Below, one piece after another: positions 35,763-48,085 of a DNA stretch of 48,085 bases; the first letter of the stretch is position 1, and each line of letters begins with the position of its first letter. This stretch comes from Deltaproteobacteria bacterium (GTDB lineage: Bacteria; Desulfobacterota; Syntrophia; Syntrophales; JAFGIO01): assembly GCA_016929555.1 (NCBI GenBank), contig JAFGIO010000069.1:1-48085 (forward strand), in the 5' to 3' direction. Made by a program: the position numbers and the translations under genes. The notes beneath the pieces are model-generated. The model was not told where the DNA came from and ran no database searches. It was given only the letters and a program-made list of their open reading frames with translations.

Positions 35763-36932
35763 CTAAAAGAATTTCAACTCTTCCTTCATTTTGCGAATGA
35801 TGAGCAAGGCCTCCACTCCCGGTACCGGTTTCAGGGGGGCAAACTCGCCCGAAGTCATATCCAGAGGTCCCATGATGCCCCGTGAGGTCACCGTCATGAC
35901 GGCGTTGAAGTAGGGGAGATCGGACCGGAGATCGGGAAAGGGCGAAGTCGTCCCGATGAATTTCGTCGCCAGGGCATGGTCCCCCGTGACCTTGATCAGA
36001 ATATCTTCGATCATCATGGCATAGGTGGCCCGATCCACAATATCGCCGGGCCGGAACGTGCCGTCGGGATAGATTTCCAGGCCGCGAATACCGATCTTCA
36101 GGCAATCTTCTATGTCCACCTTCAGGGGATGGTCCGCAATATCGATCGCCGTGGGGGCGGCGGGGGCCGTCCTGGCCTTTTCGGGATCCTTGAAATCCGT
36201 GTCAAAACTCTTGGGTGTCCGCTTTTTGTACAGGACATCTATCCGCAGCTCCTCCATGAAAAGGGCCGCGGCATCCGCCCTATTGATCCGCTCCAGAATG
36301 GCGATCTTTTTGCCCGCCGTCGTGCCCGGCATGGCGCGCTGGATTTTTTGAATCAGGTTCCATTCCCTGTCCGCTTCGCCGACATAATCGCCCTTGAGTT
36401 CCAGGACCTTCGCAAACATATTGCCGGCCTGAGCGAAATCCAGGGCTTCCTTGTAGGCCCTGCCGGTATAATGGTAAAGGGCGGGCGCTTGGGGATCGAT
36501 CTGCAGGGCCCAGCTATATTCGTCTTTCACTTTGTCGAGCCATCCCTTGTCGGCCGTCCTGTTCATGGTGTGGAGTCTGATGTAGCCCACATGGGCCGCC
36601 ATCTTGTCCTCCTTGGAGACGGCATACCTCTTCGCCAGCTTCATAGCCTCGAAGGCCGGCTTGAAATCGCCCTGGAAGGCCTTCGCAAGTCCTTTCCCCG
36701 CATGGGCCCGGGGATATTTCCGGTCGAGTTGAAGAGCGAGATCGAATTCACGGTCGGCCTCGGCGTATTTCTCCTGGTCGAGCAGTTTGAATCCCACATA
36801 GGTATGATGGGCCGGCGTATCCATCTCACCGACGGGCTGCCGCGCTTTCGGCCCGCAGGAAACCACAAAGGCCCCAAGTCCGATCATCAGAATAAATAGC
36901 CATATATTCCGATATTTGTTTCGATGAATCAT
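35763..36932 (-). CDS. TPR-containing lipoprotein with C-terminal SLH-like repeats
   Basis: Signal/lipobox ...LGAFVVSCGPK; TPR-like LLDQEKYAEADREFDLALQLDRKYPRAHAGKGLAKA; C-terminal GIRGLEIYPDGTFRPGDIVDRATYAMMIEDIL...FPDLRSDLPYFNAVMTVTSRGIM (SLH-like). Confidence 0.75.
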   Translation of the reverse strand: MIHRNKYRNIWLFILMIGLGAFVVSCGPKARQPVGEMDTPAHHTYVGFKLLDQEKYAEADREFDLALQLDRKYPRAHAGKGLAKAFQGDFKPAFEAMKLAKRYAVSKEDKMAAHVGYIRLHTMNRTADKGWLDKVKDEYSWALQIDPQAPALYHYTGRAYKEALDFAQAGNMFAKVLELKGDYVGEADREWNLIQKIQRAMPGTTAGKKIAILERINRADAAALFMEELRIDVLYKKRTPKSFDTDFKDPEKARTAPAAPTAIDIADHPLKVDIEDCLKIGIRGLEIYPDGTFRPGDIVDRATYAMMIEDILIKVTGDHALATKFIGTTSPFPDLRSDLPYFNAVMTVTSRGIMGPLDMTSGEFAPLKPVPGVEALLIIRKMKEELKFF

Positions 36933-39963: not shown

Positions 39964-39999
39964 GACCGCAGAACCCCGACCACGGGGTCTTCTGCGGTC
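39964..39999 (-). terminator. Strong intrinsic terminator closing the 48081-40064 minus-strand envelope operon
   Basis: Minus strand GACCGCAGAAgaCCCCGtggtCGGGGtTCTGCGGTC followed by TTT; long near-perfect stem 65 bp past the stop at 40064. Confidence 0.75.
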
Positions 40000-40063: not shown

Positions 40064-40981
40064 TCAATCCAATACGATCATGACACGGCATTTTTTCATG
40101 AAGGTCAAATTGTCGGAGGCAGCCCTGATCCGGTCGGCATCGGTCATAGCGATCACGATGTCCGACCGCCCGGGTCCCGCAGTCTTGAGTCCCTTCACGC
40201 TGATAGGGTTGTTCGTCACCCGGGGGTTGCTCTGAGCCGCTGTCAGATCTCTGGCATAACCGCTCATTCCCTGCTGGACGGCATATTCCCGGTCCACATT
40301 CAATGCGCCGTAGACTTCCTCGCCGTCTTCATCGAGTATCCGGGGAGACATGGCGGGCCTCGCCTGAATGCCGCGGGCATCGACGACGAGACCCGTATAA
40401 ACCTCGGGGGCGGGAACGGCGGGTGCCGGGGCGACGGGTTCGGGTGCAGCCGGGACGGGAGGCGCAGCCACCGGCGCCGGAGGCGCAACGACTTCGGGCT
40501 TGCGCTCCAGAACCTTGGGAATGATGACCCGCGACAGATCGCCCAACAGGGGCATTCTGACAACAACTTCGACGGTCCCGTCGGACATGTAATCGGGTTC
40601 GCCTACGATGACGGCGCCCTTGACGAAGCCTTCGACCTGGCTGTTGATGACGTCGCTTTCGATGGTAAAGTCCCGCACCACGGTCGTTGAATCAATACGC
40701 ACACCCTTGATGATTTCGAGGAGATTCCGCTTGGCGATTATTTCCGCTGCCCGGATAGCCGCGGGCCTCGCTCCGGGCTTTCCGACAAGACGATCGGGAG
40801 GCGCGCCAATGCCTTTGGCTTCGATATAACCGATACTCCAGTTTATCCTTCCCTGACCGATCTGCTCGATCATCTGCGCTCCCTCGGGCGTTGCGCCTTT
40901 TTCCTCACAGAGGCCGAAGCCTGCCGGAAGGAACAACAATCCGATCATCACAACAACGACAAATATCCGTCTTGACATCAT
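40064..40981 (-). CDS. Secreted LPP20-like protein with Pro/Ala-rich linker
   Basis: Signal peptide MMSRRIFVVVVMIGLLFLPAGFGLC; GYIEAKGIGAPPDRLVGKPGARPAAIRAAEIIAKRNLLEIIKGVRIDSTTVVRDF (LPP20-like); APPAPVAAPPVPAAPEPVAPAPAVPAPEV linker. Confidence 0.7.
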   Translation of the reverse strand: MMSRRIFVVVVMIGLLFLPAGFGLCEEKGATPEGAQMIEQIGQGRINWSIGYIEAKGIGAPPDRLVGKPGARPAAIRAAEIIAKRNLLEIIKGVRIDSTTVVRDFTIESDVINSQVEGFVKGAVIVGEPDYMSDGTVEVVVRMPLLGDLSRVIIPKVLERKPEVVAPPAPVAAPPVPAAPEPVAPAPAVPAPEVYTGLVVDARGIQARPAMSPRILDEDGEEVYGALNVDREYAVQQGMSGYARDLTAAQSNPRVTNNPISVKGLKTAGPGRSDIVIAMTDADRIRAASDNLTFMKKCRVMIVLD

Positions 40982-41109
40982 AATATCCTCCTTCTCATTG
41001 TGTCATCCCTCTCTGGGCGAACAAGCAAACGCCTGTCCAATCCACAGAATAAACAGCGAAAGTTCCTAAAAAACCGAACGATTTCCCTTTCACTTCCTTG
41101 CAGGCTCTC

Positions 41110-43866
41110 TCATCTCCCAACGGCAAAGGCCTTTTCCTCAGGGACCTCGAGGGCAGGATTGACGTTGATGTTCTTTTCGGGATCCCCCCAGATCATATTG
41201 GGATCGGGCGGATAGTTCCCCCACCAGTTCTGCCTTGCATCGATGTAAATGGAAGAGAACGCACGGATGGCTATCTCATTGTCTATAAAATTGTTGAAAT
41301 GTATGGAGGGGTTCGACATGCCCACACAATTGACGGCCCCCTCGCCCCGGTTGCCGCTGAAGGTGCTGTACCGGATCCGGGGAGCTGTATCGTTACGGCA
41401 GTAAACGCCGCTCTGGGCGTTGTCGGCGATGTGGCAGAAAGAGATATCCGGATCCCCGAAATAGATATCGAAAGCGACGGAGGCGTTTCTCACAAAGCAA
41501 TAGGCGAAGGCGCTGTTGACTTCTGTCGCCTTTTTGAACCTGACGGCACTTCTGTAGAAGCCGGGAGAGGCGGATACGGCCGAAGCGCAAAAGTGGATGG
41601 GATTGTCCTGCGTCCCTCTGGCCATCACGCCGCCGTCTTCCACGTTGATGGACATGTTCTGATCGTACTGAATCGTTACTCCCGGTTCGATGTAAAGGGT
41701 TGCGCCGCCGTCCACGGTGAGATCCCTCGACACCCGGTAGGGGCTGTTGGCGAGGGTCAGAAAGGCGTCTGTCTTGACGGCACCGCCTAAAACCTGCGGA
41801 AGGATCTGGATTTGCAGAGGCTTCCCTTCCGGGGGGGGGCCGCTCAAGACGGAGGCGATGTTGATCCGTCCTCGAATCCTTGCAAGGACTTCCAGCGCTT
41901 CCGGGGCGCCCCACCAGTTATTCAACGCATGTACGGGTTCACCGGTCATATCCGCCGACATGTCCAGAGGTTTGTTGTCGATGATCGTATTTTCTTCGAT
42001 CACGGCCTGGCTTGCTTGGATGGCGACACCCGTGGAGCCGTTCCGCGCGATCGTGTTGCGGCGGATCACGGGAGAGGCCGATTGGATCAGGATGCCCGTC
42101 CTGTCGTTGTCCAGGATACGGTTATCCAAAAGCAACGGCTGGGCCCCCGCTATGACCACCACAGCCGCCTCCCGATTTTTATGGATGGTGTTGCGGGACA
42201 CCAGGGGCTTCGAAAAGGCGCCCGCTATTTTGAGGGCCGAGCCGTTCTCCGTAAGTTCGCAGACCTCGATCCGAGGCGAGGAGGCTTCCAAGGCAACGGC
42301 CGTTATGGCGTTGCGGATGCGGCAATGAGCAAGCAGGTTCTCCTTCTCCTTGACATTGGAATAGACAATGCCTGTCCAGGGCTTGTCCTCCTGATACGCA
42401 TCGAAGAGGATCAGACGCTCGACATCGCCCGCTGCGTGCAGGCGCCCTTCCACAATAAGGGCGCCTCCCTTGGAGCGGATTTCGGTTCCCGGCTCGATGG
42501 TCAGAAGCGCCATGTCCCTGACCACGACGTCATCTTCCATGATATAGGGGCTGGCACCGGCATACCAGGTAGAGTCCACATCGAGGGTTCCGGAAACGGG
42601 CGTCGGCCCGGGCGCCAAGGGCATGCCCGCGATAGTCCCTGTTTTCTCGCCTTCATTTCCGGCCAGATCATAGGCCGCTATCTGATAATAGTACCTTTTG
42701 CCGTTCGTCAGGTTCTCATCGCGGAGTTCGTCGAACTCCGTCCGGGCGATCTCCCGGTAACCGGAAAGGGGGGTGTCGCTGCGATACACACGATACCCTG
42801 CCAGATCGGCGGCGGCCGATTTCTCCCAGTTCAAGAGAACCGTTGCATTGCGGCCCAACGCTGATGGCTCTCCGGGCTTGTCAGGAGGCACTGTATCGAG
42901 CGTGACGGTTCCGATGGCATCGATCCAGTCGACTCTGTTTCCGGTATCATCGGTGAGGTGTCCCGTGATGACGGCCCCGGAAACAGCATCGCCGGGGAGA
43001 ACCTTGTAGATCCCGAGGTAACCGCCCGGCTCGACCTCCTCCATGTCGATATGCTTCTTGAAATCTCCGATATCGAAGGATGCCCGCATCTTTGGCGAGC
43101 CTTGAATGACGACCTTGATCTCGTCTCCGGCCCTCTTGGGAAGGTTCTTCGTATCCTGGGTAAGCAGGGTGATGACGGGTGGCCTCAAGGCCTCGGCCAG
43201 CGGCGGTGAGGGAATGGTCTTGACCATCTCTCGGAAGAGATCGTCACAGGCGCGAAGCAGTTGGATATCCCTCACGTTCATGGCCGTGGCAATTACCGTT
43301 GCAATAATGCCTACCGGGGTCGTTGCGATGCCCCCCTCGTGGATGCGGACCACGTGCTTGCCGCTCCAGAGAAAGTGCCCCGTCTTCGCATCGAACATCC
43401 GGATGTCCGCACCGACGGAAACCTGTGAATAGACAAGCGCAAAGAGCTTGTCAAAATTGGATATGTCCCCGTAGACGACGGCATCGACGCCCAGGATCTT
43501 TCCCAAATCCGCTGGCGCAGTCCTTTTGATGGCCTCCGGATCGGCGAGGTTGGCCTTTGTCAAGAGATCATCCACCCTGGCAAGTTCCATATCCATGTAT
43601 GGCAATGAACTGAAATGGTTGTAGAAACCCTTTCTAACGGCCTCGTATCCCGCTTTGCCTTGAGACTGGTCGTAGAAAGGAAGAACGGCCACGGTTCGCG
43701 GCTTGTGGGTTTCCATATAGGGATCCACCTGATAGGTGCCCTCGAAGAGCGATCGTATCTCCGGGGCAATCGCCGTTGTCTTCGTGGCGATGACACAGCT
43801 CTGATTCATGACGAGCAAAAGGAGCAGTAGGATGAAAAGAACCGACGCCTTGAATCCTTTTTTCAT
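41110..43866 (-). CDS. Lipoprotein: DUF799/GNA1162-like N-terminal domain, FN3-like domain, right-handed parallel beta-helix C-terminal region
   Basis: MKKGFKASVLFILLLLLLVMNQSC lipobox; KPRTVAVLPFYDQSQGKAGYEAVRKGFYNHFSSLPYMDMELARVDDLL...LGVDAVVYGDI (DUF799-like); PPDKPGEPSALGRNATVLLNWEKSAAADLAGYRVYRSDT (FN3); repeated NTIHKNREAAVVVIAGAQPLLLDNRILDNDRTGILIQSASPVIRRNTIARNGSTGV (beta-helix). ORF track start is 43878. Confidence 0.8.
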   Translation of the reverse strand: MKKGFKASVLFILLLLLLVMNQSCVIATKTTAIAPEIRSLFEGTYQVDPYMETHKPRTVAVLPFYDQSQGKAGYEAVRKGFYNHFSSLPYMDMELARVDDLLTKANLADPEAIKRTAPADLGKILGVDAVVYGDISNFDKLFALVYSQVSVGADIRMFDAKTGHFLWSGKHVVRIHEGGIATTPVGIIATVIATAMNVRDIQLLRACDDLFREMVKTIPSPPLAEALRPPVITLLTQDTKNLPKRAGDEIKVVIQGSPKMRASFDIGDFKKHIDMEEVEPGGYLGIYKVLPGDAVSGAVITGHLTDDTGNRVDWIDAIGTVTLDTVPPDKPGEPSALGRNATVLLNWEKSAAADLAGYRVYRSDTPLSGYREIARTEFDELRDENLTNGKRYYYQIAAYDLAGNEGEKTGTIAGMPLAPGPTPVSGTLDVDSTWYAGASPYIMEDDVVVRDMALLTIEPGTEIRSKGGALIVEGRLHAAGDVERLILFDAYQEDKPWTGIVYSNVKEKENLLAHCRIRNAITAVALEASSPRIEVCELTENGSALKIAGAFSKPLVSRNTIHKNREAAVVVIAGAQPLLLDNRILDNDRTGILIQSASPVIRRNTIARNGSTGVAIQASQAVIEENTIIDNKPLDMSADMTGEPVHALNNWWGAPEALEVLARIRGRINIASVLSGPPPEGKPLQIQILPQVLGGAVKTDAFLTLANSPYRVSRDLTVDGGATLYIEPGVTIQYDQNMSINVEDGGVMARGTQDNPIHFCASAVSASPGFYRSAVRFKKATEVNSAFAYCFVRNASVAFDIYFGDPDISFCHIADNAQSGVYCRNDTAPRIRYSTFSGNRGEGAVNCVGMSNPSIHFNNFIDNEIAIRAFSSIYIDARQNWWGNYPPDPNMIWGDPEKNINVNPALEVPEEKAFAVGR

Positions 43867-43910
43867 ACACTCCTCCACAACGCGGATCGCCCCCTGAGGC
43901 TCAGGAAAGC

Positions 43911-44306
43911 CTACTCGGATTTCACAGGTTCCTTGTCCTTGGGACCGGCTTGTTCATTTTTGAGCATCTCGACGATGAACTGATTCCCATCGGATGGTGC
44001 GATCTGAATAAACTTATAGGGAATGGCCACGGGTTCCCGCCCGGTAGCGAGGGTTCGATGTGTGAGGACCCAAACGGCCCCGGACGTCGTGTCGACGAGA
44101 TAGGCGTTGTCTCCGCCTCCGGAAACAACCTGATATCTCCCCACGTCTGCGGCGAAAGTTGCGCTGCAAAAGGGAAGCATCCAAAAGAAGCCCGCCAAAA
44201 CCAGCATGGCGATCCCGACGACGAACACCCCATTTTGCCTGAAGCCTGCGGCCCCTTTCGGGTCATGGTTTATCGTTCCCTTTAGTGCTTTCTTCATCGG
44301 ATACAT
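43911..44306 (-). CDS. Small membrane-anchored/secreted protein of unknown function
   Basis: TM/signal VFVVGIAMLVLAGFFWMLPFCSATFA, then DVGRYQVVSGGGDNAYLVDTTSGAVWVLTHRT; sits inside the same-strand operon. Confidence 0.55.
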   Translation of the reverse strand: MYPMKKALKGTINHDPKGAAGFRQNGVFVVGIAMLVLAGFFWMLPFCSATFAADVGRYQVVSGGGDNAYLVDTTSGAVWVLTHRTLATGREPVAIPYKFIQIAPSDGNQFIVEMLKNEQAGPKDKEPVKSE

Positions 44307-44356
44307 AATTTGAATTCCTTACATAGGGTCTTAAAAGGAGTCCGATTCTACCGGAT

Positions 44357-46639
44357 TTAACGTCCGACGATCGTAACTTCTGCGCTGGGATCGCTTTCAA
44401 GGCCGTCAAGGCTCGAGGCCGTAACGACATAGGTCTTTTTCTTCCCCTTCTCCGGGGCGGGTTCCACGAATCCCGTTTTCTGAACCGTCTCGATCTTTTC
44501 GAGACCGAAAAACCGCTTTTCATAGACCGTATAATAGGCTATATCGGTCTCGGCGTTTGCCTTCCATCTCAGTTCCACCCGTCCTCCCCGAAGGTCAGCC
44601 GTGAATGCCCCGGGACGTTTCGGCCTGGACTTCGTCTCGACGGTGATGACATCGGAAAAGGCGCTGACGAGGCCGTCCTGATCTTCCGCCAGGATTCTGT
44701 AACGATAGACCATTCCATCCTTCAGATCCTTGTCGACATAATAGGTCCCGCCCCGAACTTTCGCAATGCGGTCAAATTCGCCCCCGTCCTTTCCTGGAGC
44801 CCGATAGATGTGATAGGTATCGATATCGCTCTCGGGATTCGCCGACCAGGAAAGGGGAACCTCCCTGACCTTTTGCGATTCGCCCCCGAGACCCTGCGGC
44901 TTCGATGGAACGGCCTTGGTTGTCCCCGATGCCACCTCGGACGGGTCGCTTTCGACATCCACCCTGTTGTATGCCCGGATGGTGTAATAATAGGTGGCAT
45001 CATCATCGAGCCTTTCCAAGCCCCTGGAAGCATCCGAGTAAGCCGTGTTGAGTCTGCCCTCGATCTTTTTGAGGAGCTCGTATTGCCCGATTTTCTCCCT
45101 GGACCAGTAGAGGTTGTAGCCTTGGACCTCTGTTTGGGGACTTGGCGTCCAAGACACGTCGATCCTTTTCACCAATCCGCTGGTGGCTGTCAGATTCTGG
45201 GGAGTCGGGGGTTTACCCTTTGTCATGACGGAAACGGTAACGGATGGCGAGCTTTCCGTTTCGGGATCTTCGAAAGACGTCACCCTGTAATAATAACGAA
45301 GATTGTCACCGAGCCCCTCCTTGTCCACATGCTGGATGATCCCGGGTTGTCCCGATGGCGGAGCGTCGATCTTCTTGATCCTGGTAAAGCTTCCGTCCTC
45401 CATCATGCTGCGGTATACATAATACCCATTGACGACGGGCGAGTTGACCGGTTCCCAGGTTAAAACCACCTCTCGGATCAAGTCTCCCTGAACGGATAAG
45501 CCTTTGACGATCGGCACCGTCGTTACTTTCATTGGAAATGAGAATTCGCTTTCCAGGTTCTTTTCGTTGTAGGCAAGGACCTGATAGTAGTAGTCCTCGC
45601 CGTCAGCGAGCCCATTGTCTATGAAGGTTACCTTGGACAGTTTATCCAGCGTCGAAAAGGCATCCCTTTCCATGCCAAGACTCTTTCCCAAGATATTTGC
45701 CACCTCGCGATAGGGGCCCGGCTCCACCTTGGACCGAAAGAGCTTGTAACCTTTCAATTTCAAAGGATCCTCGCTGCTGATTGGATTGGGAGCCCAGGTG
45801 AGATGCACGCTCTTGATATGGCCTTCGGCCCGCAGGATGACGGGCGGATTGGGGGTCAAGGCCGTTTCGGCCGCAATCAGACTCGAATATTCGCTCCTGC
45901 CGCCCTTGCTGTCGATGGAACGGATTTTATAGAAATAGGTGGTATTTCTATCCACTTCCTGATCGACGAATTCGGGCCTTGTCACGGTGGCGATTTTGGC
46001 GAAGGGCCCCTCTTCTGCAAGGCTTCTCATGACCTCGAAACCCACGGCCGTCTGGGAAGGGTCTTCCCAGCTCAAATATACCCGTTTGTTGCCCGCCCGT
46101 TTCCGGAAATTCACCGGGCCTTTGAAGGTGGGTTCTTCGTCCCTCCTTTCCACAATCTGAGTGGTGATGGTTTGGGCAATCATCGCGCCGAGTTTTCGGA
46201 CTTCGGTTGTCAGGCCCGCATCTCCAAGGGCACGCAACTGTGTGGAGAAGATCGAACGGCGCTGCTCAATATGGACGACGTTGCAGTTGATCGTGATCAC
46301 CGACCCCTTTTTCCCCACATTGCCTACGACGATGACATTCAATCCCAGACGTGTGCCTATGTGTAGGACATTATCGAGATTTTCATCCTGCCGAAGATCG
46401 TTGAGGCTGAGAAACGCTTCCAGCTCCTTGCGCTCGAGCACGGCCAGTGCAGGGTCCGCTTTCAACTCATCCACGAGCATATTGGTGACCGTGGTTCCAT
46501 AACCGGAGGCCTCGAGGCTCGGCGTCCCGAAGTTGAAGACCGAGATCTTCACGCTGGAATGCATTTCTGCACAGGCACTGGACGCGCTGAAAAGCAGGAC
46601 CATCGTCAAGACGACCCACAGACTCTTTCTTCCCCCCAT
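44357..46639 (-). CDS. Secreted protein with CsgG/TolB_N-like N-terminal domain and multiple FN3 repeats
   Basis: Signal peptide MGGRKSLWVVLTMVLLFSASSACA; KISVFNFGTPSLEASGYGTTVTNMLVDELKADPALAVLERKELEAFLSLNDL...LGLNVIVVGNVGKKGSVITINCNVV (CsgG/TolB_N-like); repeated xVxLSWxP...GYxVYRS...YYYRV FN3-type units. Confidence 0.8.
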   Translation of the reverse strand: MGGRKSLWVVLTMVLLFSASSACAEMHSSVKISVFNFGTPSLEASGYGTTVTNMLVDELKADPALAVLERKELEAFLSLNDLRQDENLDNVLHIGTRLGLNVIVVGNVGKKGSVITINCNVVHIEQRRSIFSTQLRALGDAGLTTEVRKLGAMIAQTITTQIVERRDEEPTFKGPVNFRKRAGNKRVYLSWEDPSQTAVGFEVMRSLAEEGPFAKIATVTRPEFVDQEVDRNTTYFYKIRSIDSKGGRSEYSSLIAAETALTPNPPVILRAEGHIKSVHLTWAPNPISSEDPLKLKGYKLFRSKVEPGPYREVANILGKSLGMERDAFSTLDKLSKVTFIDNGLADGEDYYYQVLAYNEKNLESEFSFPMKVTTVPIVKGLSVQGDLIREVVLTWEPVNSPVVNGYYVYRSMMEDGSFTRIKKIDAPPSGQPGIIQHVDKEGLGDNLRYYYRVTSFEDPETESSPSVTVSVMTKGKPPTPQNLTATSGLVKRIDVSWTPSPQTEVQGYNLYWSREKIGQYELLKKIEGRLNTAYSDASRGLERLDDDATYYYTIRAYNRVDVESDPSEVASGTTKAVPSKPQGLGGESQKVREVPLSWSANPESDIDTYHIYRAPGKDGGEFDRIAKVRGGTYYVDKDLKDGMVYRYRILAEDQDGLVSAFSDVITVETKSRPKRPGAFTADLRGGRVELRWKANAETDIAYYTVYEKRFFGLEKIETVQKTGFVEPAPEKGKKKTYVVTASSLDGLESDPSAEVTIVGR

Positions 46640-46707
46640 TTCAACCTCCCGGCACCAACGACTTTATTAGCAATCCTTCAACCTTTCAGATATATAGACA
46701 ACCGCCA

Positions 46708-48085
46708 TCAAGTACCGGAGACGAGCAATTCTATGAATTCCTGAGATTTTTTGGATATGGGCGTGGCAATGCCCTTCGTCTTTTCGTCATAGATCGCATC
46801 CATGTACTTCTCTATGGCAATTTCGTAGTTTCGCCTTCTAAGTCTCTGCTGTTCTGCCTCATTGAAATACTCGACTTCGAGACTCTGGTAGTTTTTCAAT
46901 ACGCTTTGTCCCATCTCGGAAACCTTGACGTTGGTCAGTTCATCGAGGACTTCGGTTTCTGTTGAAAGTTCCAGCGGATCATAGGCGATGCCGGCCGCAG
47001 GCACGGCGTCCTGATAGGGGTCTTCCTTGATAAGCTTGCCCGCGAGGGTATTCGTAAAAACATTCTCGCCGGTCATGGTATCCACAAGCTTATAGGATAT
47101 CTCGATGAGAGCGCTGATTTTTGCGATTCCCCTCTTATGGGGGATAAACTGATAATTGCGTTTTTTGACGGTCCGGGGCGGTGAGTTCTTGAATTCCTCG
47201 GGCGTCGGCTTGGGGTGAAGAATCAACCAGTCCGAGAATTCCGGATTGTGGACTACCTCCTCATCGACGAGGACTTTCACTTGACTGATGCTGGCGTTAT
47301 CCGTCCTTTCAGACGAAAAATGAAGGACGTCCCCCATGATGAAGGTGTCGATGCCCCGCATTTTGCCGAGGGTCTGTGCCGATTTCAGGTCCACGATGCC
47401 CGTTTGTCCCAACTGCATCTCCCGCAGGATGGACTGCAGGTTCTCGCGCTCAATGATCCTGAGGTCGCCGCTGGCGCTTTTATGAAGATAGGCAATCAGT
47501 TTGTTGGCTGCTATCTTGCCCGCATCCTTGTTGTTGCTGGGGCTGCCGAAGTCAAAAACCGCAATGGACTTTCGGATTCGCTTATTGATATTGTCTTTAG
47601 CGACTAGAACCTTATGGAACAAATCGCGGTAATTCGGATTGAGCTGTTCTATCTGCTGGTACCAGACGAGGCTGTTGCCCCATAATTCCTTTTCGGCGTA
47701 CCTGTCGGCTCGCTCCATCAATTTCGCACAGAAGCTATTGACGAACTCTTTGTAGGCGGCCTCATCCTGCAGGGTGGCCGAGTAGTTCCTGGCCAGGGTC
47801 GTTTTCTTCATGGCTGCGTAGAATTTATCCTGGTTCACGAGCTTTACGGCGTCATCGAAGTAGATTTGAGCCACCTTGGCCTTCAGACTGCCCAATTTAT
47901 CGAAGAGTTTCCGATTCTCCGGACCGTATTCCCCGGCCTTCTCGAACATCAGGATTGCCCTGTCCCACTTCAGGGCCTGAGCGGCCTTTTCAGCTTCGGC
48001 AATGAAATAGTCAGGATTGTCCTTTGATTTGGCCTCCTCGTATAGAGCGGCCACATCGTAATAACCCGGATTGAGGTCCATCGCC
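46708..48085 (-). CDS. TPR-CsgG-like envelope protein (5' end truncated by window edge)
   Basis: Helical repeats ALKWDRAILMFEKAGEYGPENRKLFDKLGSLKAKVAQIYFDDA; then IAVFDFGSPSNNKDAGKIAANKLIAYLHKSASGDLRIIERENLQSILREMQLGQTGIVDLKSAQTLGKMRGIDTFIMGDVLHF (CsgG-like). The Met at 48081 is preceded by open frame, so it is probably internal. Confidence 0.8.
   Translation of the reverse strand, partial: AMDLNPGYYDVAALYEEAKSKDNPDYFIAEAEKAAQALKWDRAILMFEKAGEYGPENRKLFDKLGSLKAKVAQIYFDDAVKLVNQDKFYAAMKKTTLARNYSATLQDEAAYKEFVNSFCAKLMERADRYAEKELWGNSLVWYQQIEQLNPNYRDLFHKVLVAKDNINKRIRKSIAVFDFGSPSNNKDAGKIAANKLIAYLHKSASGDLRIIERENLQSILREMQLGQTGIVDLKSAQTLGKMRGIDTFIMGDVLHFSSERTDNASISQVKVLVDEEVVHNPEFSDWLILHPKPTPEEFKNSPPRTVKKRNYQFIPHKRGIAKISALIEISYKLVDTMTGENVFTNTLAGKLIKEDPYQDAVPAAGIAYDPLELSTETEVLDELTNVKVSEMGQSVLKNYQSLEVEYFNEAEQQRLRRRNYEIAIEKYMDAIYDEKTKGIATPISKKSQEFIELLVSGT

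Follow-up and report, generated by a model that had tools for sequence, protein, structure and literature searches.

CsgG, the channel of curli secretion, forms a ring, and the TolB_N-type fold that it represents is widespread and not always ring-forming, as GNA1162 and LpoB illustrate. PelC, an outer-membrane lipoprotein of Pel polysaccharide export, also forms a ring (PMC12141448). FlgP, FlgT, and FlgO are ring formers of the flagellar collar (PMC12222027, PMC6375700), and within the FlgP family ring formation correlates with an insert between the SHS2 helix and the second strand (PMC12222027). We found no paper in the open-access literature on the function of the CsgG-DUF4810-DUF799 or GNA1162 operon. 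Here, we describe a locus whose domains are all known; in the same literature we found no description of the two conserved, nested modules that they form.

Gene layout of the locus

The window, i.e., the whole stretch of 48,085 nucleotides analysed here, comprises all of contig C46 from a draft genome of 3.07 Mb, and g1, the gene at its edge, therefore lacks its 5' end. The initial annotation described five adjacent minus-strand genes with a terminator behind them and a continuation upstream of the window. The open reading frame coordinates (40064-48085) agree with this layout. The features of the locus are the following, with the supporting evidence in parentheses:

46708..48085, minus strand: g1, TPR lipoprotein with a CsgG-type domain, of which the contig end leaves the C-terminal 458 aa as an open frame (ORF, Pfam, model, Foldseek)
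44357..46639, minus strand: g2, secreted protein with a CsgG/TolB_N-like domain (weak match) and then up to six FN3-like segments, 760 aa (ORF, Pfam)
43911..44306, minus strand: g3, small secreted protein without a known family, 131 aa
41110..43878, minus strand: g4, lipoprotein with a GNA1162 domain, Ig-like and FN3 domains, and two right-handed beta-helix domains, 922 aa (Pfam, PDB profile search, model)
40064..40981, minus strand: g5, LPP20/FlgP-type (SHS2-like) domain, Pro/Ala-rich linker, and C-terminal Tp0624-like domain, 305 aa (PDB profile search, Pfam of the family)
39964..39999, minus strand: hairpin terminator 3' of g5 (folding energy)
35763..36932, minus strand: g6, TPR and SLH lipoprotein, with mutL and miaA lying between it and g5 (Pfam)

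The gaps among g1-g5 measure 32-128 bp. The terminator is a genuine hairpin (-28.8 kcal/mol, z = -3.7 versus shuffled sequences) with only a moderate T tail, and the identity of mutL and miaA is confirmed by NCBIfam. The operon does extend upstream, since the contig ends inside g1 and relatives carry a further gene, g0, upstream of it; neither g0 nor the N-terminus of g1 was found in the window's own genome assembly. Across many genera the operon genes share 50-70% identity, far above chance.

Domains and models of the encoded proteins

The reading of g1 as a TPR protein with a CsgG-like domain was borne out: it matches Pfam CsgG with 36.5 bits (cut-off 20.8) at about 47311-47538, and its AlphaFold2 model (21 sequences, pLDDT 81) consists of TPR helices followed by a CsgG/TolB_N-type fold, parts of whose core are of low confidence (pLDDT 50-63). 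The top Foldseek matches of the model were CsgG (4uv2/4uv3), and FlgT (3w1e), PelC (5t0z), and GNA1162 (4hrv) were also matched, all of them TolB_N-type folds. In a PDB sequence search, the g1 profile matched mostly TPR proteins and no CsgG; the relation of g1 to solved CsgG is visible by fold only. Full-length relatives of approximately 665 aa carry a lipobox, and g1 is thus, like CsgG, a predicted outer-membrane lipoprotein with a CsgG-type fold. One full-length homologue (G031:C90:1181-2548, locus L035) shares only 27% identity with g1 and may represent a second family within this system. A separate CsgG-family protein of canonical length (169.5 bits) is encoded in the same genome as the window (G000:C162:4461-5045, locus L001).

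The FN3 array assigned to g2 was confirmed (fn3, 82 bits; split by segment, two FN3 segments lie above the cut-off and the remainder is divergent), whereas the CsgG/TolB_N-like domain at about residues 30-165 matches weakly, its 18.7 bits narrowly missing the cut-off of 20.8 (the whole-genome search gave 21.4 bits). The small secreted protein g3, predicted as such from the outset, contains the conserved motif AYLVDTxTGAVWVLTYRTLATGREPIAIPYKF and had no significant match in PHROGs, Pfam, or NCBIfam.

We found that g4 has an invariant lipobox cysteine (Cys28) and matches GNA1162-like (PF05643) with 60 bits (cut-off 25.9) and Beta_helix with 88 bits. Its N-terminal domain resembles the GNA1162 lipoprotein of Neisseria both by sequence (4hrv, E 8e-12 in the PDB profile search) and by model (TM 0.74-0.77). 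In contrast to GNA1162, the AlphaFold model (48 sequences, pLDDT 87) adds Ig-like, FN3, and two beta-helix domains; it contains no membrane hairpin. The GNA1162 and beta-helix parts of the original description therefore stand, and the long FN3 array reduces to one weak FN3 and one Ig-like domain. A 1213-aa g4 fusion at loci L086 and L132 was rejected as most likely an open reading frame read through upstream of the true start, overlapping the MBL gene.

The window's g5 alone has no Pfam match, but LPP20 is matched by 32 of the 35 members of its family, which upholds the LPP20-like assignment. In PDB profile searches g5 matched FlgP (9hmf_C, E 6e-16; Vibrio FlgP also) and its C-terminal part matched residues 130-263 of Treponema Tp0624 (5jir, E 2e-6); unlike Tp0624, g5 has an LPP20 domain in place of the OmpA-like domain. 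The upstream gene g0, as seen in relatives, contains FlgT_N (41 bits, cut-off 28.8) and also matches FlgP by profile search (E 2e-6). The alignments of g5 and g0 to FlgP cross the stretch after the SHS2 helix, where a ring insert would lie, without large gaps. An SLH domain is present in g6 (28.6 bits, cut-off 20.8) and recurs in g6 of three lineages. Overall, Pfam, AlphaFold/Foldseek, and the conserved lipoboxes support the envelope localisation proposed for the operon.

Conservation of the locus and co-occurrence of its genes

We compared neighbourhoods in 20 same-order relatives and in named Syntrophaceae/Syntrophales genomes. The Syntrophales layout is pgk-truA-rfbD-g0-g1-g2-g3-(MBL hydrolase)-g4-g5-mutL-miaA-g6. 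Many relatives without g0-g3 retain g4, and usually also g5, at the same position, two genomes (G030 and G040) hold g0-g2/g3 at other loci, and g3 is missing or unrecognised at many loci. In many Syntrophales the five genes are indeed kept together, although they separate into two modules, with g4-g5 often occurring without g0-g3. The window lacks the MBL-fold hydrolase between g3 and g4, an optional gene of many relatives (e.g., L075:10687-11454, L076:6178-6990, L087:10573-11343).

Desulfobacteria have the order g4-amidase-TPR-g5-g6-(FlgT-like)-FecR. Some Syntrophales, like Desulfobacteria, carry the amidase (PF01520) and TPR gene pair between g4 and g5, and the window locus has no such pair; at L127:12936-14871 the pair consists of an N-acetylmuramoyl-L-alanine amidase (with TPR) and a TPR gene, and the same insertion was seen at L114, L116, L117, L126, L128, L139, L146, L147, and L149. 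A search of the window's own genome for an amidase of the same TPR architecture gave no close homologue, the best being a 38% amidase-domain match on another contig. In Desulfobacteria and Nitrospirota g6 adjoins g5. Shorter g4 relatives occur in Nitrospirota, Nitrospinota, and Syntrophorhabdaceae, and one Nitrospirota locus encodes CsgG/FlgO-like, TPR-SLH, LPP20-like, and GNA1162-beta-helix proteins consecutively. In Nitrospirota and a Desulfobacterium, MlaE-type permease genes, sometimes with FecR nearby, are found in the vicinity of the g4 locus (L167:956-1732 by Pfam; L139:188-964 and L165:15756-16427 by sequence resemblance).

Co-occurrence was assessed in 80 same-order genomes, with presence called by hand from E-value lists with set thresholds. 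Every genome with g4 contains g5 (39/39) and nearly every one g6 (37/39), while all 27 genomes with g1 contain g5 and 26 of them g4. Fisher p-values for the g4-g5, g4-g6, and g1-g4 pairs range from 1e-17 to 1e-10, which is too small since the 80 genomes are related. Presence switches within several families (e.g., f11, f13, f14, f15, and f19 for g4/g5; f9, f14, f15, and f16 for g1), and a single ancient split thus does not account for the co-occurrence. Two modules emerge: a core of g4-g5-g6, found also in Desulfobacteria, and a nested cassette of g0-g3. At the level of the phylum, 38 of 297 sampled genomes have g4-profile matches, some to the GNA1162 domain only.

Possible functions of the operon

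We considered an accessory flagellar-motor ring (H-ring or basal disk) that is encoded apart from the flagellar genes. Like Vibrio FlgO-FlgP-FlgT and Campylobacter FlgP, the operon combines FlgP/LPP20-type domains (g5, g0), FlgT_N (g0), and TolB_N-type domains in a gene cluster, and a FlgO-like domain occurs at a Nitrospirota locus. FlgI, however, occurs in 14 of the 27 g1-carrying genomes versus 28 of the 53 others (p = 1), shows no association with the operon genes across the 80 genomes (p 0.8-1), and is lacking from several near-complete genomes that carry the operon. Moreover, no flagellar genes were found among the operon neighbours, and in contrast to the flagellar clusters the operon adds TPR, FN3, beta-helix, SLH, and amidase parts and encodes much larger proteins. 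Since co-occurrence with FlgI is absent, we rejected this role, to which we give hardly any probability. The initial annotation had suggested a possible system for outer-membrane secretion or surface assembly, a pore or scaffold with built-in adhesive modules. In a curli-like version of it, g1 would be a CsgG-type channel for the export of g3 or a different small protein, and g2 and g4 would display adhesive modules at the surface. The CsgG matches of g1 and the conservation of g3 would fit such a pore, as would a long hairpin (residues 247-279/305-335) that sits in the g1 monomer model at the place of CsgG's first membrane hairpin. CsgG has two transmembrane beta-hairpins per subunit, yet the model lacks the second, and in the outer half of the one present about 30% of the residues are charged and 30% hydrophobic, and no stretch clearly alternates in a membrane-facing pattern. 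Unlike the curli channel, g1 has N-terminal TPRs, and Pfam detected no CsgA/B substrate or CsgE/F genes in the operon of the window or its relatives, where no beta-barrel or other exporter was recognised either; g3, the candidate substrate, is missing or not recognised at many loci. Given the single charge-rich hairpin, a secretion pore appears possible but not supported, a role in surface assembly is conceivable, and we consider a pore of either kind quite unlikely.

Two further roles draw on the peptidoglycan and polysaccharide connections of the gene set. An outer-membrane regulator of peptidoglycan enzymes would act as LpoB does for PBP1B, with TolB_N-type lipoproteins extending across the wall and controlling either synthases or the linked amidase. 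The amidase linked to g4-g5 in Desulfobacteria and the SLH lipoprotein g6 are consistent with such a regulator, as are matches of LpoB to g4 and to TolB_N-type neighbours in related loci. These LpoB matches are weak and unspecific, however, and the window locus has no amidase, nor was a close homologue with the same TPR architecture found in its genome; we regard this role as unlikely. The presence of PelC among the fold matches of g1, which combines TPR and TolB_N in one protein, suggests instead a role in exopolysaccharide export, with a periplasmic collar and a TPR scaffold that resemble PelC/AlgK, and the beta-helices of g4, of carbohydrate type (Beta_helix, NosD), would handle the polysaccharide. 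Upstream lies rfbD, but it is also found at loci without g0-g3, and no catalytic site was identified in g4. While the operon shares with the PelC ring a TolB_N-type fold in an outer-membrane lipoprotein beside TPR, it has no PelB-like barrel or Pel enzymes, and no synthase, deacetylase, or outer-membrane barrel was recognised in it or its relatives. Export of exopolysaccharide is therefore highly improbable.

A proposed flagellum-independent scaffold at the outer membrane-peptidoglycan interface

We hypothesize that the operon encodes an envelope scaffold or ring that is anchored in the outer membrane, lies at its interface with peptidoglycan, and acts independently of flagella. This is our best explanation, and we judge its probability to be about even. 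The initial annotation had missed two links, one to peptidoglycan (amidase, SLH lipoprotein) and one to the flagellar ring families. Together, the ring-forming families, SLH lipoprotein g6, and the amidase linkage point to an outer-membrane-anchored ring or scaffold on peptidoglycan that is not tied to flagella. The lipoproteins g1, g4, and g6 would be anchored in the outer membrane. In the periplasm, a ring or collar may form by oligomerisation of LPP20/FlgP-type domains (g5, g0) and TolB_N/CsgG-type domains (g0, g1, g2, g4), by analogy with the FlgO/FlgP/FlgT H-ring or basal disk and the PelC dodecamer. The FN3, Ig, and beta-helix parts might serve as rigid spacers or binding arms; if the beta-helices of g4 face outward, g4 may be an adhesin. 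The SLH domain of g6 would dock the assembly to the cell wall, but it could also bind a different polymer, and in Desulfobacteria the linked amidase might remodel peptidoglycan locally. A bolder version of this scaffold, which we consider somewhat unlikely, is a novel trans-envelope ring machine, present in Syntrophales and Desulfobacteria and represented by related parts in Nitrospirota, that would share a ring lineage with FlgO/P/T, CsgG, and PelC and encircle a non-flagellar structure at sites where the amidase opens the wall.

If the ring reading is true, flagellar-collar proteins would be part of a broader class of envelope rings, including some that serve non-flagellar structures, and the operon would provide a comparison for the evolution of H-rings and basal disks. 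It would also give a first function to the GNA1162-FN3-beta-helix and LPP20-Tp0624-like proteins, which are recurrent in uncultured sediment and wetland bacteria. One genome, G035, appears to hold the complete operon and is presumably that of Syntrophus aciditrophicus; if this species is a carrier, the question would become testable in a cultured syntroph.
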